35,714 bases of DNA from a virus, in the IMG/VR virus record IMGVR_UViG_3300017752_000064, positions 1 through 35,714 of that record. One strand, 5' to 3'. A program made the translations under genes and the position numbers. Positions within the stretch are counted from its first letter, which is position 1. Each line of letters opens with the position of its first letter. The notes under the pieces were generated by a model. The model was not told the origin of the DNA, did not search any database, and worked only from the letters and a program-made list of their open reading frames with translations. Shown piece after piece: positions 8,401 through 35,714 of the stretch.

Positions 8401-11400
8401 AATGTTTATTCTATCTTGTGCAGTTAATAAGTTTACTGCTTTTTTATATGCAATTACAATATTTGTATTCACAGGTACAGGCTCAGATAAAATAATTTGT
8501 CCGTGATATCTAGTATAACTTTTTGCTGTATTTGCTAAATTTTTATATGTATATTCACTTCTTAAAAGTTCTATGTTGTTTACAGTTACAGTAACATTTG
8601 TATTTTTTAGATCCATAGGCCATTTTAATTCATATACGTATTTGGATCCTGTGCCAGTAAATGTTTCTGTTTCGTTGATTGTAGTAATAGAATAATCTCC
8701 GCTTACTCTATCAAATTTTACTACATTTTTTATTCCACGTGTTAATCCGTCTCCTAATATAGTACTAAGTTTTGCATTTTTGCCTGTTTCTGATATGCCA
8801 CCTGTAAGTGTTAACGTAGGTGCTGTTATGTATCCGCTTCCCTTATTTGTAACTTCTACACTCGATACTCGTCCATTTGCTCCTAGTTTTGCTATTGCTT
8901 TAGCACCTGACCCGCCGCCACCGGTAAGTTTTATAACAGGTGCCTGAGTATACCCAGATCCGCCATCAGCAATTTGTATATCTACAACTTTAAATCCTAC
9001 ATTATCTGTCCAGTTCTTAAAAGGATATGTTGCTAAATCGTCATCTATACCTATTAACGTATCACCTACTACTTTAACATTTTGTGGTTCTATATTTTTT
9101 GTAATTGAATTAAAGCCGGGTTGTAAGTCAAAATCAGTAATTCTACTTTGGCTATTTTCTATCTTTTCATAAGCACTTAAATATTCACGTAATTTAGTTT
9201 TAAATGGTTTTACTTCCTCAAGATATCTTTGATAGCTAGGAAGACTGTCATTGTTAAATGTTAAGTCCTCGCGTAGTTGTCCAACATTATGTTTTGCTTT
9301 TACAAAGCTAGTCTTAAATGCCCAATCGACATTATTTTGCTCACTAAACACATAGCGTAAACTTGCAAAGAATAATTTATTATATTCGATAGCTAATTCT
9401 TCTGTATAAAGACTTTGTTTTATAAAGTTTAAAACTGCTCTACTTTCAATGCTAGGAACACTATCAAAGAATTGTGAATCAAAACTTATAATATCAAAAC
9501 CGGTTGCACTTAATCTTGTATCATAAAGAGTAGGTTTAAATGAAATAGTACCGTTTTGTCTACCTATAGTTTCATAGTTTACTGTGTAATCAACGTTAGA
9601 TTGGTTTGCTATTTTTCTTAATATAAGCCAACCACCTGTGCCTACATTGTTAATTTTTACAATATCTCCGATATTATCATCTATACTTTGTAATTGATAA
9701 GCTCCGTCAATAACATTTTTTACTTCTGTAAACTGATTATATCCTGTTGCATACCAATCTATATAATCCCAAAACAAACTAACATCATATGACTGACTTG
9801 CTATTCGTTGCCAAGTCCTAGCTACACTATCTCTTTCGTATAATGCCCATTTTCCTAAAATGGTTTCATCGTTGCTTACAAGAGCAGTATATTTTCTAAT
9901 TGTTATAGTATCAGTATCTAAATAATTTTTTCCGCCATTTATTATTTCTACATTAGTAATAACACCTAAATTGTTTATAGTAAATTTTAAGTCTGCACCC
10001 GACCCTGTGCCTGATATTTTGTATGTCGGTGCAACAAGATATCCGCGTCCAGGATTAACTACATCTACTCTAGTAATAACACCATCAGTAACAACCAAAG
10101 ACATTGTTGCTTGTGTTGCTTTTGCAACTCCTATAAATTCTAAATCCGCTACAGTATCAACTGTTGTATCAAACGTTCTGCCAACTGCACTAGGCTTAGG
10201 ATCTGCCGCTTTTATTAAAGTAAGATCTTTGTTGTCTATAATTAAGTTTTCTTTTAATACACTGTTTACTCTTTCAATAACCTGTTTGAGTGCTTCTGCA
10301 CTGTTTACAAACCAACTTTGTCTAGGCGAATTAAGTATTCCGTATTTTTGTTTTGGAGATAAATCGGGTGCAGGAACTTGTTTGCTTTGTTCGTCGTATC
10401 CTACTAAACTATCAAACCATTTTCTTTCAATATCTCTGTTAGGAACACTAGATGCTAATCCATCTGTAACGATTTGATATTGATTATGTATATTGATATT
10501 TTGATTATCTATTGTCCAATATTGTAAACTAAATGCAATGTCTTTATTTTCTAGTAGACTTTCACAATTATATATTGTAAAGCTGTCTGGTGAAATTAAA
10601 GCTGCAAATTTGTATCCTTGACCTTTAGGATCTCTAATTAAATTTGCAACATCAAAAGAAGATATTGTTCTAAATTCTACGTCAGGTGTTGTACGTTTAT
10701 TTTTTACCCAGAAATAATATTTTGTTGTTGTACTACCACTTATGCTATCATAGGTCTGTCTTGTAGAATAAACTGTATCATCATACAAACTTACACCGTC
10801 TATTCCTTGTTCTTGAGCTTCTTCAGTATCACTTAGACTATTCCAGGCGCTAGGTAGCACTGTAGATTCTACCCATTCATATACATCTATTGTGTTGCTT
10901 TCAAACAAACTATTCCAGTTGTTTGCCGAGAAAATTACATCTGATTGGTAGGCGTTTAAATATTTTGCATTAGTTAAATTCCACCACAATTCTCCGACTT
11001 GTTCTTTACCCCAACTAGCACTTGGCATTACTGTAACATTACTTCCCCCTACAGAATAATAGGCAGGATCATAATAAGTTTTATATGTCAAGTTTTGTTC
11101 TGCAGGACCTGCCACTTTTCCTTGTACAGGATCTAAATAATCTAGATATGTTACTAATTTATTTGTTTTTGTGTTATATAAAATTGCACGTTTGATCTTA
11201 CTAATATCAACAGTATCTTTTGGTTGTCTTAAATACTCCCATATATTTTTATTATCAGGAATTCTAAAATCAACTACTGCTCCAGTATAAACTGAATTTA
11301 CACTTGTTTTAGGTAAGCCAACATAAACATGATTATTTTTAAGTTTAAAATTATTTCCAAAATCGCTTAAACTGCTGTCATCTGTTTGATATTGTAATTG

Positions 11401-14400
11401 TTGGGCATATAACAAACCGTCATTTATTATTTCATAAACGTATACCGAACCTTGCTGTTCATAATATTTTTTATATGTTGTAAATTCGTTATCAAAAGTT
11501 GTAGACACCAGGTTCTTCTGACTAGTTTTATCTAGTATATAACTATCATCAATAGGAGTAGAAAATGTATCAAATGTTGTGTCAGTCCAATTGTCACCAT
11601 TTTTTGCATTTACAATTAACCTTGATCCATCAAAGTCTATTTTATTACCAAAAAATTGAGAAGTTGTATTGCTAGGACTCATTAATGTTTGTAAATAAGT
11701 AAATTCTCCATCTACCTGTTTATATATATAAACTTTTCCTTGATTATTTTTATTACTATCATCTGATGGTGTTGCTATTGCAATTAATTTGCCGTCTGTG
11801 CTTATTGCAATATCGTCGCCGAAACTTTCTGTCCCACTAGGAGCAGCAATTTGTTGTGAACGTCTATATTGTCCGTTAAGTATTCTGTATACAACTACTA
11901 AGTTTGGTTTATCATTACCGTACTTGGCATTGACAATTAGTACTTCGCCATCAGGTGTCAAATCAAAGCTATTTGCATAATCATACATAGATCCTTGATC
12001 TAATACTGTGCTAATATCATCACTACTGTCTGAAATTATTGTTACACCAGTATCGTTTGGAACATAACCTACATAGTCAATTAGGTCATCTGTACTATCC
12101 CATTGTAAATTATTAAATGTTCCTGCTATAATATTTGTAGTAGCATTGTACAAGGTATTTCCAATAGAAACAATATCACCAACAAAATAATTTGTTGATT
12201 CGCTGAATACTCCTTTGTAATTTTTATTTTTTGAATATTCCCAGTTATAGAAAATATTATTTTCAGTTCCATATTTTACGAAATATATTCTTCCTGGATC
12301 ATTTACTGTGTTCGATGCTGGCGCACTTATAAAACCTCTGTATACATCATTAGAATTTTTGCTAATTTCTACTCGAGAACCTAAATAATTATTATCTTGT
12401 CTTTCAGATCCTACATAACTGCCTAAACTGACATAGTTACCGGCATTATTCTGTTGGTATATATAATATATTCCTTCATTTGTAAATGGAGTTCCTACAC
12501 TTCCTCCTGACGCTGTTGGAATTTTATATACCTCTGTCCAATCAAGATTATCGCTGGCAGGTGTATTTGCTGTTCTTGGTATTCCGTTTATTACTGTTTG
12601 TTTATAAATCCAATATTCAAAGTTGTTATCAGGACTTAAAAATGCAAAGTCTCCAGTCAGTGCATTATTTGTTACAGTTGCACCCAATTGCGAAACTGTT
12701 CTAAAATCTCCATTTGGAGGTGTTATATTTGCGCCTGTGTCTACAACAAATAGTTTACCTATACCTGCTGTAGCGTTTCCTAAACTAACACGTTGTATTT
12801 GTCCCATAATACGCGGAATAGTATAAATTCCTACTCTACCATAATTATCTGGATTTGGGCCAGGGGCATAAGGTAAAAATTCTATTTCTGCATTATTTCC
12901 AAACTGATTACCTTTACTCCAATTACCAACAACATCTTTTACAAAAATTGTTACATCGTTAAGACTTCTTTGATAAAAAGCAACCTCAGCAGTTGCATTA
13001 GTAGAAACATCACGCACTCTTTGACCTATAATAGGTTCAAAAGGTAAACCATCTAAACCTTTAGTGTTTTCATAACTGATATATCCGTCCCATATATCAT
13101 CAATTGTATGCTCTTGGTTTGTTACAGCAAAACTCAATCCTATAGTGCTTGGATCTTTTAGCGCATCAATTACCGGAAGTACATTAATTTTTACACCTAA
13201 TGCACCCGAAGCACTAAACGTAAGTAAATTTACAGCATCAAAAGATCCTGTAATAGTATCTATAGTAATTACTGTACCATTCGTTACACTTTCTTTTATA
13301 ACTGCTGTTGCACCTGTAACCTGCTGTGTTATTATTTCACCTGCACCTACTGTAATTGCATTATCTAATGTAATTGTAGTAACAATATCATTCAAGTTAT
13401 TAAGGTATAAATTAAAATCATCGCCTACTTGTGCAGTATCTGATAACTCTTTAGGTGCTCTTATAACAAATTTAGTACTAATTATTGGATCTGAAGTTCC
13501 TAACGGGCCTGGGGTTCCTGTAAAACTTAATGTCTGTATATAACTATTAATTACACTTTCACTGTCTTGTACGTTTGTACTGTAATCTAAACTTTGGTAA
13601 TAATATCCGTCTAAAGTGCTATCAGTTGCTAAGTCATTCACTGATACAAAATCTGTGTATACCAAGCCGTTGCCAGTGTCAAAATTTGTATCAGTTATTG
13701 CATAAGGATTACTAGATTGTACAAACCAATATCCGCCCCAAGAATCTGCTGTGGTTATTTCTTCACTCGGTCCTATTCTTTCGTATTCACCTACAAAATC
13801 GTTACCGTCAATAAACAGACTGTTTCCTAAAGGAAATTCTCCGTTTATATCATTTACATAAATCGTCAACTGAGCAGATTCGTTGTGTGTATAGACTACT
13901 GTTCCAGTTGCTCCTTGTGTAGTAACTGTGTCGCCTATATTAGGAATGTTATTAGATGCGTCAACATATAATATGGCATCTATTTTCTTACTAATAGTAT
14001 GCTCTGACTCTAAATATTCTTTTGAAAGATATGGCACTGAACCATCAAATGGTGATCTCTCTACTAAATTAATTTGTGCTTGGTTTGCATTTGCCAAACT
14101 ATTCCATCTTAGATATATTTGATCACCTACTCCTGATCCATCATACATACTTTTTGGTGCCCTAAGTAAAAAGTGATCAGTTGTAATATTTTTAAACGGA
14201 TAATCACCTGTAAGTATTATAGGTATATCTTCTGCATCTTGCGAATAATTGTTTAAAGTGTAGTTGATCTGTGCAACACTATCAAAACTATTAAAGGTAA
14301 TGTTATCTACTGCACCAAGAATTGCGTTATCTGCCTGCCATAGGCTATCATTTAAACTTACTATGTCGCCAGCAGCATAATCAGTGTTTGTAGCAAATCC

Positions 14401-17400
14401 GTTTTTAAAATTAGTTTTTACACTAGAAGCATTTGGTGCACCTACAATAATGTATTTTGCATCATCGCTCATTGCTACACTATATCCAAATTTTTGTCCT
14501 GCGCTTGCAATATTTTCGTCAGGCTCTAAAACCTGATACAAATTGTAATTCAAGGCATTACTTGCTCTATTGTAAATGTATACCTTTCCATCGTCGAAGT
14601 CAGGTGAGCCTACAGCAATTTTAACATTTCTACTATCAACTGCTATTGCACTACCAAACTTATGTCCGTCTCCAAGTTCAGTATTAGATAATTCTTGCTG
14701 TACTGTAAATTTATTTGTATTTTGTAAAACAGCCCATTTTCCGTTTCCGGCATCGTCAATCCAAAGTTTTTCATCTTGACTTATTTCTTGTTCTGCTAAA
14801 GTATTTGCTTCTAATAAATTAGATGTTCTAACACTTATAAATTTACTTAATTTACCTTCACACTCTTCTACATCTTCAACACTGTCCGAAGACTCTAGTA
14901 CAATTTTATTAAGAGAAACTGATTTAACTTTAAAAAATCCTTCAATAGGAGCAAGTGTTTGTGTCAATGTTTGAGTGCTATCAAATGCCCCCGGAGCATA
15001 TGTTTTAATTAATACATTGTATATTCCTAGCACATCTCCTGTATTAATATCTAAAGGAGTAGCATTTACTACTAATGTAAATTCATTAGTACCAGATTCT
15101 ACTTTTTCTATTACGTAGTCAGTCTGCACATGCTGGAACACTGACCAATCTTGTTTGTAGTTTCCTACCCATATATAATCTTGATTATCAATATCACTAA
15201 AGGATTTGTTTACAATTTCGTCATATTTTGAAATTACAACATTAACATCTTGTGGATTTACATAGCCTGCATCCTTTGTATAACCCTTATTAATATATTT
15301 TGCAGGGAATGGTGAATGATCATAATTATTTGTTTTTAAATAAGTTTCATAACCTTGAATTCTATAAACTAAATCTGTTTCTAAACCTGTAACGTTATTT
15401 GTAAGCAAAATTGGTTGCGGATCGCTTACAAATTTCTTTTCGTCTAATAGGTATTCAACTTCATCAAAACTTTCGGAAGCACCATACTGACCATCTTTGA
15501 TTGCCCATTCTTCAAAGAAGTCTAAACTTTCTTGGTCTGCACTTGCTAGTGCATCAAATAATTTAGTTAAGGAATTTTTGGATCCTTTATCTAAAATAAA
15601 TCCTTGATAAAATTTGTATTGACTGACGTCGTCATTGATAATGTTTTCTAAATATTGACGCTTTTGGTATCCAATTAAGTGTTGTGCTAATTTTTGCTGT
15701 TCAACATCAAAATTGTCGCTGTCTAAATCATAAAAATCACTAAATTGATTAATTTTGTAATCAAAGTTTGTTAATAACCCCGGTGTTGGTTTGTTATTAA
15801 GTCTGTTCCAACTGTTTGCTTCAAACAGTTGTGTTCCTGCGATTTTTTTGTCCGAACTATAATAAAATTCTTTGTGTTTTACTAAGTCGCCTATTGTATA
15901 ATCTTTCCAGGCTTCCCATTCTGTTGCAACTGCATTGTCGTAAATGAATCCTGGTATGTTAAGACTTCCGTTCCAATTGTCTGTTCTATAACCTAATACT
16001 TTAATTCTTTCCTGCCTATATCCTGCAGCAGGGTCATATATTACATCATTAAATACAGTCTTGTTATCTATAATTAAAACATGTTCTTTTTGTACTAAAG
16101 GAAATCTTGCTGCAAATATACCGTCTGCCGAATTTACAACAGTGACAGTACATTGGTTTTCAACACCTTTTGAAATACGTATAAATTCACTATTTAATTT
16201 TTTACCATCACCTTTAAGTAAACTATAACCATAAAACGTATCATATATATTATCAACGATGCTGTAACTAGACTGTAGAGTTAATCTATTTGCACCTGGA
16301 CTTATTGTAATTAATGTACCTGCAGCCCAATTTTGTGTGGTCCAGAACATGAATTGTTTTGTGCTAGTAGCCCAATCTGATACTTCGTTTGAATTAGGAA
16401 TCCTATCTTCAAATACAAATCCTAACTCATTAAGATACTTTCCGTAGCCATATAAGAAATCAACAACATCTTGTAACGTGTATAGCTTATCACCATAATT
16501 TAAAGTACTTGCAGTAATTTCAAATATACGTGGCATAGTAGCCACCGCACCGCCAACTAGCGGTAATTCAGGTATACCAGCAAATTTACTAATGTCAAAA
16601 TTATTTTCGCTAGTATGAGCCTCAGTTACCCTAAAGAAACTATTATTTTGTTTTACAATTTGTCCAACTGTATATGAACTACCACTTGAATAATTTACAA
16701 ATGATTCTGATATTCCTCCTACGTTAATTACAGGATCATTTTGTTGTACAATCCTTCTATAATACGTAAAGCTAGGCTGAAAATTATCATAGCCTCTGAT
16801 TATATATCCATCTGCTTGTTTTTCAATTATTACACCACTATAACTAATTGTTTTTATAGGACTACTAGTATTCAAGATTAGATTATAATTTTCGTCTGGT
16901 ACAAAAACGTTACCTTCATTAGTTGGCGATCTAGAATCTAATATTAATCTAAACTTTTTCTTATCTGAATAGCCTGCAATTTTACTACCCATTTGGTTTT
17001 TAATATTAACTAATCTTGTTTTGTAGTCTGTGTAAGATTGGACTGTGTTGCTTGTCATATAGTTTGCAATATAATTAACAAGTCCACTTGTAAACACCTG
17101 TGTTGTATCAGATATAGTATTTGGGAATACAACGTTTTCTAATTTAATAGGTATAGCAGAATCACCGTAAACAATCTGATTTGCTAAATTTCTTTTTTGC
17201 CTAGCTCTGTCAAAACCAGTAGCAAATATATTATTTGGCTGATTTTGTACCCAAGCAGTAATTAAACTAAAAGGATATTCTGAACTTCGTCTCCAAGCTG
17301 ATTCTACGGGGCCACCATCACCAAACACCCAATTATTTGTAATTACGCTTGAATCAAGGTTTGTTAACAATCCACAAGCATTTGGGTCAAGTAGATTACC

Positions 17401-20400
17401 GCCAGCATCAACTGGTATATGTCCTGTAAGACCCGGTCGCTTATAATTGTTTAAAACTTTAAATTTTTTGTTTGGTTCTCTTACAACTCCGTCTTCTAAA
17501 TCTTGCCATAGTAGTTTGTTATTTCTAGTATAAGGTGCAGGACCATACTGTGTTTCCCACCAAGTTGGTTTGACACTAAAACCTAGCATTTCCCAAGGAT
17601 CTGTGTGCGGTCTATCAGTATCAAATGCATACATATATGCTTGACGCCAATGACCGGGTAGTTTTTCTGAGCCTGTTACATATCTAGTATTTGAATAGTT
17701 AAATGTGAATGCATTATTTCTATCGAAAGAACTATTAGTTACGTAATCTCCATCTACTAATTCATTCCATTGTATAAAATCAGCTGTCATAGAATAATTT
17801 AATTCTTGTCTTGTAAATGTAGTATCTCTATGCTGTCCAGGAACAAAACTATGAATATCTAATATAGAAGTATCATAATTTATTTTTATGTTATTATAAA
17901 TTCGTAATTCTAATTCTAATAATAAATTGTCTCTAAAATCATCGTATCCTACAAACTTGCTACCGTCGTGTCCTTGAATAACAGTGACTGGGTTTATAGC
18001 TGTATTATCAGTATATATTTTTGGTTCAAATGATGGATAAAGTCCTAACTTACTAGGAGTAGGTGGCATAAAACTAGCATTAGTGCTATCATATTCATAC
18101 GTATCTATTACATCGTCTACTGCTTTAGTAGCAGTAACGTCTACAAATCCTTCAGTGTTAAAAATGTAATCCTTACCATGTGTCAACTGACTTCCATTTA
18201 AATATACCTGTACAGCCTTCCGGCTTAACGTAGACATTGAAAATGCACTACTTAACGGAAAATATCTTTCATCTGTGTCTAAAACTGTGTGACTGGTTTT
18301 TACTGCGCCACCTTGCGGAACCATATCACTAAAATAAAACGGCATATTAGATGTTTTATCTTTATTCATTTGATTTAAAATATTATCTACATGCTGTTTT
18401 ACTGGGCCTTCATATCCTAGGGTATCAGCTGTTTGTAAAAACTGTCTTTTAAACTTTCCGTATTCTTTTCTAGAATATCGCAGTGCTTGAATAATATTAG
18501 CATCTTTGTCAACTAAATGGTAAGTTGATAAATTTATAGGTCCGCTGTGTTTTAAAAACTTTTTGCCGTATGTGCTTAATGATCCTATGTCTCGTAAATT
18601 ACTTGGTCCAGGAAATATACCATCAAAGTTATTAATTTCTTCTACTATTGTAGAAACATGATCATTTACTTCACCTAGAGTAAACTCTGTGACGTTTTCG
18701 TTTAACGGATTTCTTTCAATATTTTTTGCTATTTCATAATAACCGTTATTGTTTTTTGGATACTTACTTTTTGTTTTAATTACAATAACATCATCTAATG
18801 ATAAAGAATTTGTAAATGTAATATACAGTAATCCGTTTACATCTGTAGCAGTAGTATAATCTTTGTTAATAAATTGTAGTTTATTGTTGAGATATACTCT
18901 GAGCCAAAGATTGTTTACATAATCAGTATTATCATAAACATCAATATAAAAATTATCAGTTGTATTATCATAAATGTATTGTTGTATTACTGGCTGATTG
19001 CTTAGTTTATTTGTTTTTAACCAACCATTGACGTAACTAAATTTATCAATTGTTGTATATGATCTTAAAAAACCTGTATCTGTTTTTTTATTAAATAATT
19101 CCGTACCTATTTGATATGTGAATGATTGATCTGTTAAATCAAAGTTAAAAGTTATATCTCCGGTATTTGTTATGTTTCTATAAGATATAGGAAATCCTAA
19201 TTCTGCATCATTTACGCCTGTACCTTGTTTATAAGAAAATATTTTATTTCCTGCAAACGTTGTAGAATTATAATTTGTTGTATCACCAAATGCATTTCCG
19301 TTATTATCAAATAAATCGAATAAAGGTTGTTGGTTGACCGCAGACTTTTGCTGACTTAGTTTCCAATTTTTACCATCATAGGTAAAAAACTTTCCGCCGT
19401 TAGTAGATCCAAACTTTACAAACACATTTTCATTAGCAACTGGGGTTGTGTCAGTTTCTTCTACCAAAGATATTTGTGTATTATTTTTAAACTTTATAAA
19501 ACTAATCTTGTAAATTTTTCCGTTAACTAGGTTATCTGTGTCTGCACTAAACAACACACGCATACCATTTGTTAGATTTATGCCGTCGACATTATAACCT
19601 GCACTTCCTTCTATAGTTGAAAATGCATCTTTAGTAAAAGTATCGATTAAATCTACATCTATTTTTGATTTTGTACCAAAGTTAAATAATTTTATACCTT
19701 TGTTAAATTCTATAATAGGTCGCTTTGCTCTAGAATTTTCTAACAGTGTAGATGGATTATCACTAAAATTATTACTTGCTTCTATTACAGATTTATGAAA
19801 CCACCTGTTATACCTACTCCAAAGATTTCCATCTTTGCTTGCACGGTTGATTACAATATAATCTTTTTTGCTTGGATAGCCTAATGCATCACTAAACGGA
19901 AAAAAATCAAATCCCTGAGCATCAAATTGTACTTCGATATTATCTGTAAATGTTCCGCTTACTGTCAAGTCATCTTGTTGAATTAATTGTATACGATCGC
20001 CCACACCTTCAACATACCATTGGCCTGAAGTATATTTCTCTGGAGTAACTTCACCGGCAAATTCTACTTTCATACCATTAGATAAATCATATCCGCTACT
20101 TGTAGTATAAGTTTTTTTGCCTAGTATTTCTGCTTCAACATCAATTGCTGTGTTTTCTTCTATATCAAAAATTTGCATATATCCAGAGGTATTAGGATCA
20201 TTTTTTGAAATATAATATAATGAGTCTGGAGCAGTATCAGGAATAGTAAATTCGATTATACCCTTTTCAATGTATACAGTAGAAACAGTATTGCCGTCAT
20301 CATCTACTTTTGATACTCCAGTATCATAAATTAACGAGGAATTAGAAGCTGTACCGATTCTAAAACTTGCTTGTGCTTCAGCTTGTGTAATAGGATCTAC

Positions 20401-21189
20401 AATAAATCCGCCAGCATCGTATGCTGTGCCTTCTTGGTCATACAATACAACATCGAAAACACCTGCACTTCTTACACCATCTGTAGATTCAACAATGACT
20501 GCTTCACCGGGTGTAAAACTTTTCTTAGTTGCAAATGCCATAGGATGATTTGGAGTGTCAATTTCGAACCTATATTTTTGTCCTCTATATAACTTTATTG
20601 TTGGATTATTTGTCAATCCATCTGGTGAAAATACGTAGGTAACATTATCTACGTTCTCTCCTAGTCCAACAGTATATGTGCTAACAATTTCTTTTGTTTG
20701 ACCTACAACTGTTAACAAACTAGGTCCATTAGGTAACCAATAATATTCTCTGTAATTTGTTAATTTGTCCCAGTCGACATGGGGATTCCAAGCATACTCT
20801 TCTTGAGCGTTTAATCTACTGTGGTTAACAGTAGATCCGCCTAAATTACCTACAGTATTAATATAGTCGTTATAATCTTTGTAATACGTAACATTACCTA
20901 AATCATCTTTAATTACTGCTGCAGGTTCAAATTGATAATTTTCTCTGTCATTTGTTACGCCGCCGATGTAGTTGTCAGTAGGTATAAATGCCTTGCTTAC
21001 TTTGCGTCCAAGGTAACCATTTAGTTTTTCAGCAACGCCGGGTTGTATAAGTTGATCTAATGTACTTGATAAAAATTTTGTATTATACGGTGTTCTAAAA
21101 TACCTAGGTAAATGGTCTTGGCTTTTTCTACGTATACTGTCGTTGCCAGCTGGAAGCGGTGATTCATTTTGATTATTATCGTATGCCAT
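5446..21189 (-). CDS. Giant multidomain virion structural protein (5247 aa)
   Basis: A single uninterrupted 15.7-kb frame starting at an ATG that shares one base with the gp6 stop (TAATG) and has GGAGG 6 nt upstream. The N-terminal 150 residues (YNTKFLSSTLDQLIQPGVAE, NHSRLNAQEEYAWNP, YYWLPNGP) match my memory of large structural proteins in marine T4-like phages. Further on come four carbohydrate-binding-like modules of the Y..GD/Q.V...N..Y type (about 1497-1540, 1753-1796, 2260-2300, 2990-3032). FG-GAP-like propeller repeats occur between about 2170 and 3313. Two Gly-rich GSGY modules lie near 3697-3763 and 4063-4130. A C-terminal series of DGS/GDGVT-type beta repeats runs from about 4200 to 5210. 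It sits where T4 has gp7-gp11, so it may form peripheral baseplate or long fibre parts. No protease or hydrolase motif was recognised. Confidence 0.85.
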   Translation of the reverse strand: MAYDNNQNESPLPAGNDSIRRKSQDHLPRYFRTPYNTKFLSSTLDQLIQPGVAEKLNGYLGRKVSKAFIPTDNYIGGVTNDRENYQFEPAAVIKDDLGNVTYYKDYNDYINTVGNLGGSTVNHSRLNAQEEYAWNPHVDWDKLTNYREYYWLPNGPSLLTVVGQTKEIVSTYTVGLGENVDNVTYVFSPDGLTNNPTIKLYRGQKYRFEIDTPNHPMAFATKKSFTPGEAVIVESTDGVRSAGVFDVVLYDQEGTAYDAGGFIVDPITQAEAQASFRIGTASNSSLIYDTGVSKVDDDGNTVSTVYIEKGIIEFTIPDTAPDSLYYISKNDPNTSGYMQIFDIEENTAIDVEAEILGKKTYTTSSGYDLSNGMKVEFAGEVTPEKYTSGQWYVEGVGDRIQLIQQDDLTVSGTFTDNIEVQFDAQGFDFFPFSDALGYPSKKDYIVINRASKDGNLWSRYNRWFHKSVIEASNNFSDNPSTLLENSRAKRPIIEFNKGIKLFNFGTKSKIDVDLIDTFTKDAFSTIEGSAGYNVDGINLTNGMRVLFSADTDNLVNGKIYKISFIKFKNNTQISLVEETDTTPVANENVFVKFGSTNGGKFFTYDGKNWKLSQQKSAVNQQPLFDLFDNNGNAFGDTTNYNSTTFAGNKIFSYKQGTGVNDAELGFPISYRNITNTGDITFNFDLTDQSFTYQIGTELFNKKTDTGFLRSYTTIDKFSYVNGWLKTNKLSNQPVIQQYIYDNTTDNFYIDVYDNTDYVNNLWLRVYLNNKLQFINKDYTTATDVNGLLYITFTNSLSLDDVIVIKTKSKYPKNNNGYYEIAKNIERNPLNENVTEFTLGEVNDHVSTIVEEINNFDGIFPGPSNLRDIGSLSTYGKKFLKHSGPINLSTYHLVDKDANIIQALRYSRKEYGKFKRQFLQTADTLGYEGPVKQHVDNILNQMNKDKTSNMPFYFSDMVPQGGAVKTSHTVLDTDERYFPLSSAFSMSTLSRKAVQVYLNGSQLTHGKDYIFNTEGFVDVTATKAVDDVIDTYEYDSTNASFMPPTPSKLGLYPSFEPKIYTDNTAINPVTVIQGHDGSKFVGYDDFRDNLLLELELRIYNNIKINYDTSILDIHSFVPGQHRDTTFTRQELNYSMTADFIQWNELVDGDYVTNSSFDRNNAFTFNYSNTRYVTGSEKLPGHWRQAYMYAFDTDRPHTDPWEMLGFSVKPTWWETQYGPAPYTRNNKLLWQDLEDGVVREPNKKFKVLNNYKRPGLTGHIPVDAGGNLLDPNACGLLTNLDSSVITNNWVFGDGGPVESAWRRSSEYPFSLITAWVQNQPNNIFATGFDRARQKRNLANQIVYGDSAIPIKLENVVFPNTISDTTQVFTSGLVNYIANYMTSNTVQSYTDYKTRLVNIKNQMGSKIAGYSDKKKFRLILDSRSPTNEGNVFVPDENYNLILNTSSPIKTISYSGVIIEKQADGYIIRGYDNFQPSFTYYRRIVQQNDPVINVGGISESFVNYSSGSSYTVGQIVKQNNSFFRVTEAHTSENNFDISKFAGIPELPLVGGAVATMPRIFEITASTLNYGDKLYTLQDVVDFLYGYGKYLNELGFVFEDRIPNSNEVSDWATSTKQFMFWTTQNWAAGTLITISPGANRLTLQSSYSIVDNIYDTFYGYSLLKGDGKKLNSEFIRISKGVENQCTVTVVNSADGIFAARFPLVQKEHVLIIDNKTVFNDVIYDPAAGYRQERIKVLGYRTDNWNGSLNIPGFIYDNAVATEWEAWKDYTIGDLVKHKEFYYSSDKKIAGTQLFEANSWNRLNNKPTPGLLTNFDYKINQFSDFYDLDSDNFDVEQQKLAQHLIGYQKRQYLENIINDDVSQYKFYQGFILDKGSKNSLTKLFDALASADQESLDFFEEWAIKDGQYGASESFDEVEYLLDEKKFVSDPQPILLTNNVTGLETDLVYRIQGYETYLKTNNYDHSPFPAKYINKGYTKDAGYVNPQDVNVVISKYDEIVNKSFSDIDNQDYIWVGNYKQDWSVFQHVQTDYVIEKVESGTNEFTLVVNATPLDINTGDVLGIYNVLIKTYAPGAFDSTQTLTQTLAPIEGFFKVKSVSLNKIVLESSDSVEDVEECEGKLSKFISVRTSNLLEANTLAEQEISQDEKLWIDDAGNGKWAVLQNTNKFTVQQELSNTELGDGHKFGSAIAVDSRNVKIAVGSPDFDDGKVYIYNRASNALNYNLYQVLEPDENIASAGQKFGYSVAMSDDAKYIIVGAPNASSVKTNFKNGFATNTDYAAGDIVSLNDSLWQADNAILGAVDNITFNSFDSVAQINYTLNNYSQDAEDIPIILTGDYPFKNITTDHFLLRAPKSMYDGSGVGDQIYLRWNSLANANQAQINLVERSPFDGSVPYLSKEYLESEHTISKKIDAILYVDASNNIPNIGDTVTTQGATGTVVYTHNESAQLTIYVNDINGEFPLGNSLFIDGNDFVGEYERIGPSEEITTADSWGGYWFVQSSNPYAITDTNFDTGNGLVYTDFVSVNDLATDSTLDGYYYQSLDYSTNVQDSESVINSYIQTLSFTGTPGPLGTSDPIISTKFVIRAPKELSDTAQVGDDFNLYLNNLNDIVTTITLDNAITVGAGEIITQQVTGATAVIKESVTNGTVITIDTITGSFDAVNLLTFSASGALGVKINVLPVIDALKDPSTIGLSFAVTNQEHTIDDIWDGYISYENTKGLDGLPFEPIIGQRVRDVSTNATAEVAFYQRSLNDVTIFVKDVVGNWSKGNQFGNNAEIEFLPYAPGPNPDNYGRVGIYTIPRIMGQIQRVSLGNATAGIGKLFVVDTGANITPPNGDFRTVSQLGATVTNNALTGDFAFLSPDNNFEYWIYKQTVINGIPRTANTPASDNLDWTEVYKIPTASGGSVGTPFTNEGIYYIYQQNNAGNYVSLGSYVGSERQDNNYLGSRVEISKNSNDVYRGFISAPASNTVNDPGRIYFVKYGTENNIFYNWEYSKNKNYKGVFSESTNYFVGDIVSIGNTLYNATTNIIAGTFNNLQWDSTDDLIDYVGYVPNDTGVTIISDSSDDISTVLDQGSMYDYANSFDLTPDGEVLIVNAKYGNDKPNLVVVYRILNGQYRRSQQIAAPSGTESFGDDIAISTDGKLIAIATPSDDSNKNNQGKVYIYKQVDGEFTYLQTLMSPSNTTSQFFGNKIDFDGSRLIVNAKNGDNWTDTTFDTFSTPIDDSYILDKTSQKNLVSTTFDNEFTTYKKYYEQQGSVYVYEIINDGLLYAQQLQYQTDDSSLSDFGNNFKLKNNHVYVGLPKTSVNSVYTGAVVDFRIPDNKNIWEYLRQPKDTVDISKIKRAILYNTKTNKLVTYLDYLDPVQGKVAGPAEQNLTYKTYYDPAYYSVGGSNVTVMPSASWGKEQVGELWWNLTNAKYLNAYQSDVIFSANNWNSLFESNTIDVYEWVESTVLPSAWNSLSDTEEAQEQGIDGVSLYDDTVYSTRQTYDSISGSTTTKYYFWVKNKRTTPDVEFRTISSFDVANLIRDPKGQGYKFAALISPDSFTIYNCESLLENKDIAFSLQYWTIDNQNINIHNQYQIVTDGLASSVPNRDIERKWFDSLVGYDEQSKQVPAPDLSPKQKYGILNSPRQSWFVNSAEALKQVIERVNSVLKENLIIDNKDLTLIKAADPKPSAVGRTFDTTVDTVADLEFIGVAKATQATMSLVVTDGVITRVDVVNPGRGYLVAPTYKISGTGSGADLKFTINNLGVITNVEIINGGKNYLDTDTITIRKYTALVSNDETILGKWALYERDSVARTWQRIASQSYDVSLFWDYIDWYATGYNQFTEVKNVIDGAYQLQSIDDNIGDIVKINNVGTGGWLILRKIANQSNVDYTVNYETIGRQNGTISFKPTLYDTRLSATGFDIISFDSQFFDSVPSIESRAVLNFIKQSLYTEELAIEYNKLFFASLRYVFSEQNNVDWAFKTSFVKAKHNVGQLREDLTFNNDSLPSYQRYLEEVKPFKTKLREYLSAYEKIENSQSRITDFDLQPGFNSITKNIEPQNVKVVGDTLIGIDDDLATYPFKNWTDNVGFKVVDIQIADGGSGYTQAPVIKLTGGGGSGAKAIAKLGANGRVSSVEVTNKGSGYITAPTLTLTGGISETGKNAKLSTILGDGLTRGIKNVVKFDRVSGDYSITTINETETFTGTGSKYVYELKWPMDLKNTNVTVTVNNIELLRSEYTYKNLANTAKSYTRYHGQIILSEPVPVNTNIVIAYKKAVNLLTAQDRINIAYDPATGQFAKDLSQLMDGVDYGGVQVKSFDFGGPTGWDTGPWFTSEYDTYDLTYEDEVFELDGSTISITLTSPLESGVVYNLYKNGVRLDDPDWVNDSSTFANPNAIMRSITGDGVQTIIELDELGIPTAADDKIVIRKSTSDGSFLPVPGSYDTLIEGGQLDYTSAQGILAEEINIDGDGFATVANSGGPDEQLPGRVFDTVDIKVYERPTSGSSQIHSRNYIGDGVTTEFGIGTDPILDKNVFVKINNVIQTAYTIDNTTDKVKFTTAPPANSNINIVTLDYSGTNILDLDEFVSDGSSADFLTNVTYTNNLSSLVTIDGKRVEHVLTKSNSTYAAENRIVIRFSEPPVADAVVKYAIFEGEIQNFSAVTIDEFTADGSTQPVFDLTQTPFTQKPYEWFTIVQVNDTILNAGYSQKYTMTDSKEYQLKLWQVPTGSLRAGQLRIYLNGQELTYIQDWSFTSSGQFNLALDADEQSGSAILLNANVGSPGDILRVYVVGLEDSTASGGDYRYGYYDNDNNFVEDTSKLYIYSTLNDNDKIKVYQFSNHDSQGIERQNLDVVERTLLSPGVNAGRQVFVLDGSTANLNLNPALTTRKNYAVYLNNVRIDDPNYNTPQQVNNNAIIQTIFGAEQTVLDLQVLGVATVTDDVIEIVELGASITPDDGTSDWYELRQLRAGYVNLQSPAVDDQYVWVVKNGKLLDPSVDYVITPNKMRIKLTDTLSENDTIETFHFAKESLKNKFGWRQFKDILNRDIYKRLDGAQNYKLAEPLNYNDKVIVVENSTNLPDPVPGSRYPGVLFIDNERIEYFRKSGNILTQLRRGTLGTGVKSTYPEGTEFYDQSRTASMPYKDEIITSTFTADGTSSTYELDFTPASVNEFEVFVAGRRLRKTTLESYQLDTNLRTTYATSTEVISQDSPEGDITLPAEFSITGSNLVLLETPGENQKVIIVRKQGRLWNDTGIALSNADSDISRFLRSTTVDLP

Positions 21190-30437: not shown

Positions 30438-31262
30438 ATGAGAAAAGTTAATTACTTAAACAACAAAGATATCTTAAAAGAGATACATAAATCAAAAGCT
30501 ACTTTTTGTAGTTATGTAGATACAGACTATAATCAATATGATGTGATTTTACCTAGTGTAGATAAAATAAACATTAGAACTATTGCAGAAGCAAAACGTA
30601 ACAAAGCAAAAAGACTTAGTCAAAAAGCATTTGAAGAGGCAAAATTAGCTGGTAAAAAAGTTAAACAAGCTGAATGTGAAGTAGACTACAAAAAGATAAC
30701 AAAAGAAGAACTTATCTTTAGAATTATGTCATATGATCATATTCCTGAAGAACCTGGACGTAAAAAAAATCCTAAAACAGTAGCAGACACAAAGGTTAAA
30801 TTAAATTTTCCACCTTTCCAACATTATAAGTTCAATGAAAATGAAGAATTAGTTTGTGTAGGCAAAAGTCATTGGGAAGGCGGAATGGAAAATGGTACGT
30901 TTAATTTACAAAACGGCAAGGCTACTAATAAACTTGCAAATATGTGGCTAAAATTAGTAGATCGTTATGCAACAAGAGGTAATGTTAGAGGGTATACGTA
31001 TAACGACGAGATGAAAGGACAAGCAATCTTACAACTTTCACAAATTGGCTTACAATTTGATGAATCTAAGTCAGATAATCCGTTTGCATACTATACAGCC
31101 GCAGTTACAAACAGTTTTGTGCGTGTTATTAATATAGAAAAGCGAAATCAAAACATTAGAGACGATATTTTAGAAATAAATCACCTAAATCCTAGTTACA
31201 CTAGACAACATCAAGGAGAATGGGAAGCTGCTCAAAAGCGTGAAGCAGAAGCTAAAAAGTAG
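30438..31262 (+). CDS. gp55: RNA polymerase sigma factor for late transcription, gp55 homologue (274 aa)
   Basis: The N terminus, NYLNNKDILKEIHKSK, matches T4 gp55 (NYVNNKELLQAIIDWK). Residues about 184-238 (RGYTYNDEMKGQAILQLSQI, then FDESKSDNPFAYYTAAVTNS, then FVRVINIEKRN) match the T4 region GYTQSWKQEMIADGIE through [22 protein letters not shown], the sigma-region-2-like core that reads TATAAATA. It is longer than T4 gp55 (185) because of a basic segment of about 130 residues between these blocks. The C terminus is charged (EWEAAQKREAEAKK) and lacks a recognisable counterpart of the T4 clamp-binding tail (SLDFLYE). Expressed from its own sigma-70-type promoter; its targets are probably the TAAATA sites on the opposite strand. 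Confidence 0.92.
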   Translation: MRKVNYLNNKDILKEIHKSKATFCSYVDTDYNQYDVILPSVDKINIRTIAEAKRNKAKRLSQKAFEEAKLAGKKVKQAECEVDYKKITKEELIFRIMSYDHIPEEPGRKKNPKTVADTKVKLNFPPFQHYKFNENEELVCVGKSHWEGGMENGTFNLQNGKATNKLANMWLKLVDRYATRGNVRGYTYNDEMKGQAILQLSQIGLQFDESKSDNPFAYYTAAVTNSFVRVINIEKRNQNIRDDILEINHLNPSYTRQHQGEWEAAQKREAEAKK

Positions 31263-31319: not shown

Positions 31320-32330
31320 TTGTTTAAAAAAGCAGCAGTGTTTACCGACATCCATTTAGGATTAAAAGGTAACAGTAAGATTCATAATGAAGATTGTGAA
31401 GAATTTATAGATTGGTATATTGAACAAGCACAAGCTAACGGTTGCGAAACTGGCATTTTCTGTGGTGATTGGCATCATAATAGAAACAGTCTCAATCTTA
31501 CAACCATGGACTCTACTATACGTTGTATGGAAAAACTAGGTAAATCGTTTGAGAAATTTTATTTCTTTGATGGTAACCACGACTTATACTATAAAGATAA
31601 ACGTGATGTTAATTCTACTGCATTTGCAAAACATATCCCTGGAATAACATTTATTGATAAAATTTATCAAGAAGATGATGTTGCACTTGTTCCGTGGCTG
31701 GTAGGCGACGAATGGAAGAAGATAAAAAACATTAAAACAAAATATTTGTTCGGACATTTTGAATTACCCAGTTTTTATATGAATGCTATGGTACAAATGC
31801 CTGATACAGGTGAGCTACAAGCATCACACTTTGAACATCAAGAGTATGTTTTTAGTGGTCATTTTCATAAACGGCAAAAACAAGGCAAAGTACATTACCT
31901 AGGTAATGCTTTTCCACACAACTATGCTGATGCATGGGATGACGATCGTGGAATGATGATACTTGATAAGGAAAATAATAAAGAACCACAGTATATCAAT
32001 TGGGATAATTGTCCTAAGTATAGAACTATTGGATTAAAAAGACTATTAGAAGACACTGATGCTGTTATTAAGCCTAAGATGTATTTGCGTGTTACTATAG
32101 ATGTTCCAATTTCTTTTGAAGAGGCAACGTTTATCAAGGAAACATTTGTTACACAATATAAATGTAGAGAGCTATCACTTATTCCGCAAAAACAGATGGA
32201 AGAAATTACTACAGATGTAGATATACAACAGTTTGAAAGTGTAGATCAAATTGTTAGCGGTGAAATTGCCGCAATTGACTCAGATAACTTTAACAAAAAA
32301 ATGCTATTGGACATTTATAACGAATTATGA
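31320..32330 (+). CDS. gp47: Recombination endonuclease subunit gp47 (Mre11/SbcD-like, 336 aa)
   Basis: Calcineurin-like metallophosphoesterase with all main metal motifs visible: DIH (residues 10-12), GDWHH (49-53), GNHD (85-88), GHFE (145-148) and GHFH (180-183). With gp46 it forms the nuclease complex that makes and processes DNA ends for recombination-dependent replication and, in T4, helps degrade host DNA. The start is a TTG at 31320, chosen because it has AAGGA 7 nt upstream and leads directly into the FKKAAVFTDIH beta strand; no upstream ATG is available in frame close by. Length equals T4 gp47 (about 339). The stop overlaps the gp46 start by 4 nt (ATGA), so the two subunits are translationally coupled. 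Confidence 0.97.
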   Translation: MFKKAAVFTDIHLGLKGNSKIHNEDCEEFIDWYIEQAQANGCETGIFCGDWHHNRNSLNLTTMDSTIRCMEKLGKSFEKFYFFDGNHDLYYKDKRDVNSTAFAKHIPGITFIDKIYQEDDVALVPWLVGDEWKKIKNIKTKYLFGHFELPSFYMNAMVQMPDTGELQASHFEHQEYVFSGHFHKRQKQGKVHYLGNAFPHNYADAWDDDRGMMILDKENNKEPQYINWDNCPKYRTIGLKRLLEDTDAVIKPKMYLRVTIDVPISFEEATFIKETFVTQYKCRELSLIPQKQMEEITTDVDIQQFESVDQIVSGEIAAIDSDNFNKKMLLDIYNEL

Positions 32331-34099
32331 TACGTATTAAAGACTTAACCGTAAAAAACTTTATGAGTGTGGGCAATCAGACTCAGGCTGTTGACTTTAA
32401 CAAAGAACAACTAACACTTGTGCTAGGCGAGAACTTAGATCAAGGTGGCGATGATGCAGGATCACGTAACGGCACTGGTAAAACTACTATAATCAATGCT
32501 CTAAGTTATGCCTTGTATGGTATAGCACTAACAAATATTAAACGCAACAACCTAATTAATAAAACTAATAGCAAGAGTATGCTAGTAACTTTACATTTTG
32601 AAAAAGATGGTATTGATTACAGGATTGAGAGAGGCCGATCACCTAACGTACTAAAGTTTTATATCAACAATCAAGAACAAGAAATGACCGATGAGTCACA
32701 AGGCGACAGTAGAAAGACACAAGAATCAATTAACACACTGCTAGGCATGACCCATGATATGTTTAAGCATATCGTAGCACTGAACACTTATACTGAACCT
32801 TTTTTGAGTATGAGGCAAAATGATCAACGTGCTATAATTGAGCAGTTATTAGGTATTACTATATTAAGTGAAAAAGCAGAGTCTTTAAAAGAACAAACAA
32901 AACAAACTAAAGAAGCAATCACCCAAGAAACATTAAAAATTGAAGCAATGCAAACAGCAAATAGTAAAATTGAAAGTACTATTGAAAGTCTGCAAGGAAC
33001 TCAACGTGCTTGGAAGGCAAAACAGCAAAAAGATGTTGAAAAACTGTCAACAGGCATTGACGAATTAGAACATTTGGACATTGATAAAGAATTAGATAGC
33101 CACGAAAAACTATCTAATTGGTCTGAACACAATAATGCTATTATGGCTCTTAAAAAAGAATTAAGCACACTAGAGCCAGCACTACAACGTGCTACTAAAA
33201 GTGTTGAAAAAGCACAAAAAGACATCGCAAATCTTGAAGATGCTGTATGTTATACATGCGGTCAAGAACTTCATGCAGATAAAAAAGCAGAAATTGCAGA
33301 TAGAAAAGCTAAAGAACTTGATGATGCATTATTATATGCTAGTGAAATTGATACAAAACGTTCTGAAGTTTTAAATGGATTAAAAGAAATTGGTGAGATA
33401 AATGGTAAGCCTGATACATTCTACGAAACTGCTAAAGAAGCATATGAGCATAGACAAAATGTTGATAGATTAAAACAATCTCTTACTGCAAAACAACAAG
33501 AGTCTGATCCATATCAAGCACAGATTGACGAACTTAATCAAACAGCTATACAAGAAATTAGTTGGGTTACTGTTAATGAGCTTACAAACTTTAAAGAACA
33601 TCAAGACTTTTTATTAAAACTCCTTACAAATAAAGATAGTTTTATACGTAAGAAAATTATTGAACAAAACTTGGCATACTTAAACAACAGACTTACATAT
33701 TATATTGTAAAATTAGGATTACCTCATCAAGTCGTATTCCAAAATGACCTAGCTGTTGAAATTACACAATTAGGACAGGATCTAGACTTTGATAATTTAA
33801 GTAGAGGTGAGCGTAATAGACTTATACTCGGTATGAGCTTTGCATTCCGTGACGTTTGGGAAAGTCTATATCAAAATATTAACTTATTGTTTATTGACGA
33901 GTTAATTGATAGCGGTATGGACACAGCAGGTGTCGAAGGTGCATTAGGCGTTCTAAAGAAAATGGGACGAGAAAGAGATAAAAATGTTTATCTTATATCA
34001 CACAAAGACGAACTTGTAGGTCGTGTAAATCATGTAATGAGAGTTGTTAAAGAAAACGGATTTACAAGTTATGCAAATGACATTGAGATTGTAGAATGA
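32327..34099 (+). CDS. gp46: Recombination endonuclease subunit gp46 (Rad50/SbcC-like ATPase, 590 aa)
   Basis: SMC/Rad50-type ABC ATPase: Walker A GSRNGTGKTT at residues 45-54, long coiled coils (about 180-300 and 315-400) flanking a zinc hook CYTCG with Cys308 and Cys311, ABC signature LSRGE at 491-495, Walker B LLFIDE ending at Asp524-Glu525, and switch His559. It pairs with gp47 to form the end-resecting complex used in phage recombination and replication. Length is close to T4 gp46 (560). The ATG at 32327 overlaps the gp47 stop by 4 nt, and its own stop overlaps the hemC ATG by 4 nt, so expression of hemC is tied to this gene. Confidence 0.97.
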   Translation: MIRIKDLTVKNFMSVGNQTQAVDFNKEQLTLVLGENLDQGGDDAGSRNGTGKTTIINALSYALYGIALTNIKRNNLINKTNSKSMLVTLHFEKDGIDYRIERGRSPNVLKFYINNQEQEMTDESQGDSRKTQESINTLLGMTHDMFKHIVALNTYTEPFLSMRQNDQRAIIEQLLGITILSEKAESLKEQTKQTKEAITQETLKIEAMQTANSKIESTIESLQGTQRAWKAKQQKDVEKLSTGIDELEHLDIDKELDSHEKLSNWSEHNNAIMALKKELSTLEPALQRATKSVEKAQKDIANLEDAVCYTCGQELHADKKAEIADRKAKELDDALLYASEIDTKRSEVLNGLKEIGEINGKPDTFYETAKEAYEHRQNVDRLKQSLTAKQQESDPYQAQIDELNQTAIQEISWVTVNELTNFKEHQDFLLKLLTNKDSFIRKKIIEQNLAYLNNRLTYYIVKLGLPHQVVFQNDLAVEITQLGQDLDFDNLSRGERNRLILGMSFAFRDVWESLYQNINLLFIDELIDSGMDTAGVEGALGVLKKMGRERDKNVYLISHKDELVGRVNHVMRVVKENGFTSYANDIEIVE

Positions 34100-34839
34100 A
34101 ATTAAAAATTGGTACTAGAGGTAGTGATTTAGCACTTGCATACGCAAATCGTGTATGCAATGAATTACCTTGTGATACCGAAATTGTTGTGATTAAAACA
34201 CAGGGTGATCTTAATCCAGATACTCCTATTCATGAAATCGGAGGTAAAGGTGTCTTTTGTAGTGCAATTGAAACTAGTTTACTTAAAGGTGATATAGATG
34301 TTGCAGTGCATAGCTTAAAGGATATGCCGGGCGAAGAACATCCTGACTTAGTTATATCAGCAACACTAAAAAGAAATAGCCCACATGACGTTTTGATAGG
34401 AAAAGTAAGTTATGGATTTACAGTTGGCACAAGTAGTCCAAGAAGAGCCGCACAATTAAAACAACTCTATAGTAACATTGGTGTGCAAATTAAACCTATT
34501 AGAGGTAATATTGATACTAGATTAGAAAAACTTGACAACAAAGAATATGATGCTATCATACTAGCTGAAGCTGGTTTACAAACACTAGATATCAGACGTA
34601 CATGGATCAGAGTACCTATTATACCGGCAGTAGGACAAGGAATAATTGCATTGCAAACTAGAAAAAATGATTCTAGTACTATTGATATAGTAAAAAAAGC
34701 CAACCATGAAAAAACTTTTGCACAAGCAAGAATTGAAAGAGCATTTTTAAAAGGCATCGAAGGTGATTGTCATACAAAAGTAGCCGCACATGCAACAGGT
34801 TTTAATCCAATTACACTAAAGGCAATGTATTATGATTGA
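34096..34839 (+). CDS. hemC: Porphobilinogen deaminase / hydroxymethylbilane synthase (247 aa), viral
   Basis: Polymerises four porphobilinogen molecules into hydroxymethylbilane, the linear precursor of haem, sirohaem, corrinoids and chlorophylls. Family motifs are all visible: TRGSDLAL (Arg8, Ser10), GGKGVF (Lys51), AVHSLKDMP with catalytic Asp76, GTSSPRR (Arg116, Arg117), RGNIDTRL (Arg136, Arg142), YDAIILAEAGL, PAVGQG, and EGDCHTKVAAH with Cys225, the attachment site of the dipyrromethane cofactor. Bacterial enzymes are about 310 residues; this one ends 22 residues after the cysteine, so domain 3 is about 60 residues short. The ATG overlaps the gp46 stop (ATGA) and the gene's end overlaps the next start by 8 nt, so it is an integral operon member. 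A retained enzyme with a minimal C-terminal domain is likelier than a decaying gene because the frame and active site are intact. Confidence 0.96.
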   Translation: MKLKIGTRGSDLALAYANRVCNELPCDTEIVVIKTQGDLNPDTPIHEIGGKGVFCSAIETSLLKGDIDVAVHSLKDMPGEEHPDLVISATLKRNSPHDVLIGKVSYGFTVGTSSPRRAAQLKQLYSNIGVQIKPIRGNIDTRLEKLDNKEYDAIILAEAGLQTLDIRRTWIRVPIIPAVGQGIIALQTRKNDSSTIDIVKKANHEKTFAQARIERAFLKGIEGDCHTKVAAHATGFNPITLKAMYYD

Positions 34840-35044
34840 TGATGTACATGATCAACTGACAAAAGCCTACATGGAATATTTTAAAGAAAACGACAAATTT
34901 GAAGATCGTAATAGTGTTAGAACACATACTAGTGCTAGAAGATGGCTACGTGAAATACGTAGATTAGCAAAATTACGCATGGAAGAAATACACGAAAAAC
35001 ACGTAACAACCAGAAAAACCAAGACCAAAGGCGACAACAACTAG
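34832..35044 (+). CDS. Small basic conserved phage protein (70 aa)
   Basis: Starts 8 nt inside the hemC end. The acidic N-terminal helix (about 1-25) is followed by a strongly basic helix, ARRWLREIRRLAKLRMEEI (about 35-53), and a Lys/Thr-rich tail. This resembles a class of small phage proteins with an RKAL-I-LAK-RRKEI-like helix that I recall as uncharacterised and common in T4-like and other phage genomes. DNA or RNA binding is plausible from charge but not shown. The packed overlap supports a real gene. Confidence 0.75.
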   Translation: MIDDVHDQLTKAYMEYFKENDKFEDRNSVRTHTSARRWLREIRRLAKLRMEEIHEKHVTTRKTKTKGDNN

Positions 35045-35062
35045 GTACACATATATAAGTTC

Positions 35063-35512
35063 ATGCAGTGGACTTATCAAGGTAAAGAAGTAGAATCTAT
35101 ATCCGACGAATACGAAGGATTTGTTTATCTAATTACAAATAAGATCACAGGCCAAAAGTACATAGGCAAAAAACTAGCAAAGTTTAAGACTACTAAGCCA
35201 CCACTCAAAGGCAAAAAAAACAAAAGGCGAGGATATAAAGAAAGCGACTGGCGTGAATATTGGGGAAGTTCTGATAGACTAAACGCAGATGTTGCTGAAT
35301 TAGGTCCAAGCAAGTTTACAAGAGAAATACTATACCTATGTAAAGGTAGGGGCGAAATGTCCTACATAGAGGCAAGAGAACAGTTTGATAGGCGTGTGCT
35401 TGAAACTGATGAATACTATAATGGTATCATTAATGTTAGAGTAGGCGGATCAGACAAACTCAAACAGGCGTTGCTAGAACAAAACATCAAGGCAAAACAA
35501 TCTAACACATAA
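35063..35512 (+). CDS. GIY-YIG-type endonuclease (149 aa)
   Basis: The N-terminal fold shows the GIY-YIG pattern as GFVYLI (residues 19-24) and KYIGKK (32-37) ten residues apart. A Lys/Arg-rich loop and DWREYWGSS follow, then EAREQFDRRVL, which supplies the usual Glu (about 103), and NGIINVRVGG, which supplies the Asn. The domain fills the whole protein, with no separate DNA-binding module as in long homing enzymes. Similar stand-alone nucleases occur in marine T4-like phages. It could act in host DNA breakdown, in DNA processing alongside gp46/gp47, or be homing-endonuclease-derived. The ATG at 35063 has only a weak upstream purine stretch (TAAG), 18 nt past the previous stop. Confidence 0.8.
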   Translation: MQWTYQGKEVESISDEYEGFVYLITNKITGQKYIGKKLAKFKTTKPPLKGKKNKRRGYKESDWREYWGSSDRLNADVAELGPSKFTREILYLCKGRGEMSYIEAREQFDRRVLETDEYYNGIINVRVGGSDKLKQALLEQNIKAKQSNT

Positions 35513-35690
35513 GGTTGGCGGGCCAGTTTGCAAATACCGCTGAGTAAAAGGCATCCGAGAGGAGCACTCGTACACGTTGAGCCGCGTCCGGTAGTAGGGC
35601 GGCAGGATTGACGTAGGTTGACTGTTAGCAATCGAAAAACACAACACAGTTCATAAAAACTCTTTAGCAATAGGAACGAAGCGAGAGGTA
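35513..35690 (+). ncRNA. Candidate structured non-coding RNA or 5' leader (GC-rich intergenic stretch)
   Basis: 178 nt with no convincing reading frame. The first 98 nt are about 59% G+C by hand count, far above the surroundings. Four consecutive possible hairpins can be drawn: GCGG/CCGC (35518-35521 with 35537-35540), CGAG/CTCG (35556-35559 with 35567-35570), GCCGC/GCGGC (35581-35585 with 35599-35603) and GATTG/CAATC (35606-35610 with 35629-35633). No tRNA T-loop, tmRNA or known riboswitch core was recognised. Strand is assigned because it follows plus-strand genes; orientation is not proven. It may be a phage RNA, the leader of the next gene, or a terminator/processing region. Confidence 0.4.
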
Positions 35691-35714
35691 ATGTACTACA
35701 CAGAATGCATAAAC
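35691..35714 (+). CDS. Possible start of a further gene, cut by window edge
   Basis: An ATG at 35691 preceded closely by GAGAGGT opens a frame (MYYTECIN) that remains open to the last base. Only eight codons are visible, so it is reported because of the ribosome-binding-like sequence and the tight gene packing elsewhere. The spacing to the purine tract is short, and chance cannot be excluded. Confidence 0.25.

Follow-up and report, generated by a model that had tools for sequence, protein, structure and literature searches.

A C-terminally shortened phage hydroxymethylbilane synthase gene overlapping gp46, and its probable place in heme synthesis during infection

In a stretch of DNA of 35,714 nucleotides from a large marine phage (IMG/VR record IMGVR_UViG_3300017752_000064, positions 1 to 35,714; hereafter the window), positions 34096-34839 were confirmed to encode a protein of the HemC family with conserved active-site residues, and the gene is well supported as an auxiliary metabolic gene of the tetrapyrrole pathway whose start overlaps the end of gp46. 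Based on family membership, active-site residues, predicted fold, selection, conserved linkage and the co-location of hemE, hemF and hemB in relatives, all read from sequence, we consider it likely that hemC specifies an active, shortened hydroxymethylbilane synthase of a phage-only lineage, which would be made together with gp47 and gp46 and would support heme flux. The features of the window on which this reading rests are the following:

30438..31262, + strand: gp55-like late sigma factor, with which the conserved block opens (PHROG 12791, 269 bits; closest to PA5oct-group jumbo phages)
31320..32330, + strand: gp47-like SbcD-type nuclease subunit (PHROG 100, 224 bits)
32327..34099, + strand: gp46-like SbcC-type recombination nuclease subunit (PHROG 77, 332 bits)
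34096..34839, + strand: hemC, hydroxymethylbilane synthase (porphobilinogen deaminase), 247 aa, C-terminally shortened phage form (TIGR00212, PF01379, alignment, model)
34321..34323, + strand: codon of Asp76, equivalent to the catalytic Asp84 of E. coli (D in 89/89 phage-set and 13/13 cellular HemCs)
34582..34584, + strand: codon of Thr163, which aligns with E. coli Arg176 (R in 13/13 cellular and 1/89 phage-set HemCs)
34768..34770, + strand: codon of Cys225, equivalent to E. coli Cys242, dipyrromethane cofactor attachment (C in 89/89 phage-set and 13/13 cellular HemCs)
34832..35044, + strand: orf70, a 70-aa ORF with no function assigned (shares 8 nt with hemC; recurs at almost every gp46-hemC locus)
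35063..35512, + strand: SegE-like GIY-YIG endonuclease, conserved neighbour (PF19835, 117 bits)

The order gp55-gp47-gp46-hemC-orf70-segE is retained in nearly every close relative whose sequence reaches far enough, and the window also has baseplate and virion genes, so that hemC lies among phage genes. The initial annotation had placed hemC in a replication/recombination operon; the genes upstream are gp47 and gp46, and a late sigma factor gene, gp55, precedes them. The overlaps of 4 and 8 nt that it had described both match the coordinates, the first being the ATGA shared by the end of gp46 (34099) and the start of hemC. There was no match to orf70 in Pfam or PHROG. The idea that orf70 is a split-off tail of HemC was discarded, given that it precedes hemC in loci L134 and L135 and has a homologue in L148, where no hemC was found.

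The hemC frame, earlier called intact, is open from ATG to TGA, but its product is short and half of domain 3 is missing. With NCBIfam TIGR00212 the window protein scored 258.7 bits (E 5e-77), exceeding the curated equivalog cut-off of 164, and with Pfam PF01379 it scored 216 bits; the top match in a PDB search was the porphobilinogen deaminase (PBGD) of B. megaterium (E 4.5e-44). Residues were compared across a phage set of 89 distinct HemCs from outside the cellular panel, except that one of the 89 is L057, a non-phage Bacteroidia locus that is also in the panel. The Asp76 and Cys225 recognized in the initial annotation align with E. coli Asp84 and Cys242 and are invariant throughout this set, while its claim of substrate arginines is upheld for Arg8, Arg116, Arg117, Arg136 and Arg142 (E. 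coli Arg11, Arg131, Arg132, Arg149 and Arg155) but not for E. coli Arg176, which is replaced by Thr163. All 89 sequences keep Arg11, Ser13, Lys59, Ser81, Lys83, Asp84, Arg131, Arg132, Arg149, Arg155 and Cys242 (E. coli numbering), and the Arg/Lys cluster R11, K83, R131, R132, R149 and R155 is complete in every one of them; the positions of Lys55 and Ser128 were variable among the HemCs checked. As a separate observation, hemC is broken into two frames in a single contig (L012:2104-2847, as read from L083, which is a copy of that contig), which reflects either a sequencing error or a broken copy.

An AlphaFold2 model of the window HemC, built with 42 homologues, had a pLDDT of 92.2 and a pTM of 0.88, and was predicted to have the fold of domains 1 and 2 plus the cofactor helix-turn of domain 3. 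Comparison of the model with solved PBGDs gave Z scores of 26-30 overall, including 30.5 for 4htg and 29.9 for E. coli 1pda (rmsd 1.6 A over 236 residues). The phage protein shares with cellular HemC/PBGD (1pda, 4mlq and human HMBS) the equivalog family, the fold, the catalytic Asp, the cofactor Cys and most substrate arginines. In contrast to the cellular enzymes, which are of ~310 aa, the phage form is 247 aa long, is missing Arg176 and the final strand and helix of domain 3, and belongs to a separate clade on a long stem. The model stops where the E. coli enzyme has residue 265 of its 313, with ~48 C-terminal residues missing; in domain 3 it retains the helix, the cofactor turn and two strands, and has lost the third strand and last helix. 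Accordingly, only positions 3-38 of the 74 in PF03900 (domain 3) were matched, below the cut-off, and there are 23 residues from the Cys onwards in the window protein versus 55-105 in the cellular panel. Thus, neither the complete domain 3 nor the Arg176 of a canonical three-domain HemC is present in the window protein. The shortening and the loss of Arg176 are common to most phage copies: in 78 of the 89 phage-set HemCs the chain stops 22-28 residues from the cofactor Cys, in ten longer phage forms this distance is 50-54 residues, and position 176 is Ala, Thr or another residue in 88 of 89, the single sequence with Arg possibly being the Bacteroidia locus L057 itself.

Phage hemC is kept under strong purifying selection as judged by dN/dS values of 0.04-0.16 against relatives, which in most comparisons are somewhat above those of gp46 and gp47 and of the same order. 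Together with the recurring gp46-hemC junction in tens of contigs, these values bear out the earlier designation of hemC as an auxiliary metabolic gene.

A HemC phylogeny had been suggested with the initial annotation. In the tree that we obtained, 41 phage HemCs form one clade with a long stem, apart from the cellular panel (support 100/100), and the shortening maps as a single change; the panel comprised 13 cellular sequences, without SAR11 or cyanobacteria, and the tree names no donor. A genome scan for a SAR11 or alphaproteobacterial source, limited to near-exact peptides, gave one weak match, to Bacteroidia (39%). The best public relatives of the window gp46 are the jumbo phages Phosso, PA5oct and Atu_ph07, and gp55 likewise matches these best, being closest to the PA5oct-group jumbo phages; a pelagimyophage origin was rejected on these matches. 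The DUF1127 genes in L111 and G016 give a hint of a host among the Alphaproteobacteria.

Additional genes of the same pathway were identified in relatives. Between gp46 and hemC there is hemE in L050-L055, L113-L115, L119 and L132, and hemE followed by hemF in L120, L126 and L139-L141, while cassettes located away from gp46 have the orders hemE-hemF-hemC, hemF-hemC-hemE and hemF-hemC-hemE-hemB. Phage HemF scored above its equivalog cut-off, HemE was clear by Pfam (210 bits) yet fell below the hemE equivalog cut-off, and HemB matched PF00490 with 180 bits. The earlier remark that hemC is linked to nucleases rather than to metabolic genes is accordingly true of the window's own lineage but not of the relatives that carry hemE or hemF in the operon. 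As observations on the same slot, L031 has a 92-aa TMEM65-like membrane protein (5723-6001) between gp46 and hemC, where hemE is situated in relatives, and L032-L034 have a gap of similar size there.

Among large contigs, hemF and hemE were each identified in 17/33, heme oxygenase and bilin reductase each in 8/33, and alaS (5-aminolevulinate synthase) above cut-off in 12/33 (G031, G025, G032, G018, G033, G035, G016, G028, G027, G039, G030 and G036); since these contigs were chosen for carrying hemC, hemE or hemF, the fractions are not frequencies among phages. Ferrochelatase was detected in 1/33, as a fragment at the end of G033, and hemB in 2/29, and none of the 29 contigs searched for hemD, including G016, had a match over the cut-off. 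Related hemC phages thus carry alaS, hemO or bilin reductase (e.g., G016, G025 and G035), and one contig of 107 kb, G016, has alaS, hemB, hemC, hemE, hemF, heme oxygenase and bilin reductase. In G016 (L214:14964-15506, - strand) and in L230-L233 the heme oxygenase gene adjoins that of the bilin reductase, the hemO-pcyX pair known from phages. In the window-lineage contigs G001-G006, which are fragments of up to 106 kb (another is of 77 kb), hemC was found and no hemE, hemF, alaS, heme oxygenase or bilin reductase. On the HemC tree the presence of hemE changes at least 9 times and that of hemF at least 7 times, counts in which contig ends could hide some genes, and the cassettes therefore appear to gain and lose parts while hemC persists.

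We propose that hemC, from its overlapping genes, would be made together with the gp47/gp46 resection nuclease, and that the phage HemC, even without Arg176 and the domain 3 tail, would join four porphobilinogens into hydroxymethylbilane. Ring closure to uroporphyrinogen III would then fall to host HemD, and the later steps to protoporphyrinogen IX and heme would be taken by the host's enzymes or, in relatives, by phage HemE and HemF. The infected cell would thereby keep or raise its heme flux, for respiration and to the possible benefit of the phage; in relatives with both heme oxygenase and a bilin reductase, some of this heme may be turned into bilin. HemE and HemF serve protoheme and have no role in siroheme or cobalamin, and HemC acts upstream of the point at which heme and siroheme/cobalamin branch. 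The initial annotation had left haem, sirohaem and corrinoid supply side by side; heme is now favoured over siroheme or cobalamin as the product of the phage pathway because relatives place hemE and hemF in the same operon. It is important to note that, as these genes were unseen in the fragments of the window lineage, the heme assignment there rests on the relatives. The gene content suggests that these phages may run much of the heme pathway themselves during infection. We give even chances to a broader proposal, in which marine myophages related by this HemC would themselves encode most of the steps that lead from glycine and succinyl-CoA up to protoporphyrinogen IX, and on from heme to bilin, so that HemD and the final two heme steps would be left to the host; their phage-evolved HemC would work in the absence of Arg176 and, within the window's clade, with half of domain 3 gone.

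In view of the fact that the window and many relatives are fragments, several of which end soon after hemC, we considered whether hemC could be a cellular contaminant or have been joined to the phage operon by mis-assembly, a check that had been proposed earlier. This was rejected, and we regard it as scarcely conceivable, since the gp46-hemC junction recurs with an identical overlap in tens of IMG/VR contigs from many samples; in addition, contig G017 (110 kb) has gp55-gp47-gp46-hemE-hemC in its middle, and the phage HemCs are separated from the cellular panel with 100/100 support.

Two further alternatives accept the gene as a phage gene and concern what its product does. In hemC-only phages an active shortened HemC could feed uroporphyrinogen III to siroheme or cobalamin instead of heme, as would fit the position of HemC above the branch point, the absence of hemE and hemF from the window-lineage fragments seen, and the cobS and cobT genes known in marine myophages (PMC7029224). 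We consider this unlikely given that sister lineages hold hemE or hemE-hemF, which act past the protoheme branch, in the very slot between gp46 and hemC, and that the changes counted on the tree are of cassettes that vary around a hemC that stays. Alternatively, the protein could be a non-productive modified synthase, acting as a decoy that lowers host tetrapyrrole flux by binding porphobilinogen or by stalling while the pyrrole chain is still short, or one that makes another pyrrole product. The E. coli variant R176H is slowed in the elongation steps from ES to ES2 and from ES2 to ES3 (PMC3945110), and the loss in nearly all phage HemCs of this residue, needed from ES to ES3 and kept in 13/13 cellular sequences, would agree with such a role, as would the truncated domain 3 of one whole clade. 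Conversely, strong purifying selection has left the remaining catalytic residues without variation, and the longer phage HemCs (50-54 residues from the Cys) of hemF-hemC-hemE(-hemB) operons fall in the same phage clade, nearly all of which has lost R176; the change at R176 therefore goes with biosynthetic operons, and we view a decoy or an altered product as quite improbable. An active, shortened HemC supporting heme synthesis is the reading that we retain.

Tetrapyrrole genes of phages are of an established kind, with hemO, pcyX/pcyA, pebS and valaS described in PMC11480375, which also reports that phage AlaS and HemO are active enzymes and that the conversion of heme to bilin was shown for enzymes of other phages. 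Those phages (PMC11480375; pelagiphage Mosig, MT647606) resemble the ones studied here in carrying aquatic auxiliary metabolic genes of the same pathway, and some relatives here share their alaS, heme oxygenase and bilin reductase families, the heme oxygenase of G035 being 50% identical to that of Mosig. The main text of PMC11480375 names no hemC or hemF, and no hemE gene was found named in the parts covered; Mosig gave zero matches to HemC, HemE and HemF queries. Viral hemC is not wholly unreported, since porphobilinogen deaminase and coproporphyrinogen oxidase are mentioned, in one sentence, in a putative pelagimyophage 'deep ecotype' (PMC7029224), marine myophages that thereby resemble the phages here. 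However, no sequence, structure, operon or truncation analysis was found in the main text of that report, and the window phage groups by gp46 and gp55 with jumbo phages. In the open-access literature searched, we found no description of hemE-hemF-hemC cassettes or of a shortened phage HemC. The public phage collection contained no close phage HemC, HemE or HemF; ten records matched HemC, all at <60% identity, and those with an annotation resemble bacterial sequence that was entered as phage. PHROGs had no family for the window HemC, and a BFVD structure search gave no HemC-like match, the best (TM 0.54) being a binding-protein fold.

The established phage tetrapyrrole genes represent the two ends of the pathway, ALA synthase at one and heme oxygenase and bilin reductases at the other. 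If the reading that we retain is true, the conserved middle-step cassettes in tens of viral contigs would imply that marine bacteria under infection meet a general bottleneck in their supply of heme. The shortened HemC would also serve as a natural test of how much of domain 3 a four-step polymerase requires, which parts these are, and whether it requires Arg176. HemC residues have been studied because of acute intermittent porphyria.

Several other observations were made in these contigs. A search for the c-type cytochrome motif (CXXCH) as a heme sink gave one match in five large contigs, apparently of radical-SAM type by its start. G001 (~41-60 kb) and G002 (~18-34 kb) have clusters of Cys-rich proteins with N-termini that are radical-SAM/SPASM-like by eye, as judged from the sequence starts. 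L111 encodes a phage pseudoazurin (1743-2171, - strand; TIGR02375, 112.8 bits against a cut-off of 109.85), and genes for DoxX and DUF1127 proteins lie nearby. A single ORF of 5247 aa occupies 5446-21189 (- strand) of the window, with counterparts of 4960-5082 aa in G001, G002 and G017. Lastly, segE is followed by a conserved non-coding region of ~500 nt, which runs off the end of the window (35513-35714) and is full in L018:7406-7906, L012:3521-4035 and L048:7388-7865. An Rfam search of this region gave no credible match; its consensus structure comprises 70 pairs, with compensatory double changes at 18 of these, and is closed by a long-range stem, and the region looks like an undescribed large structured RNA.
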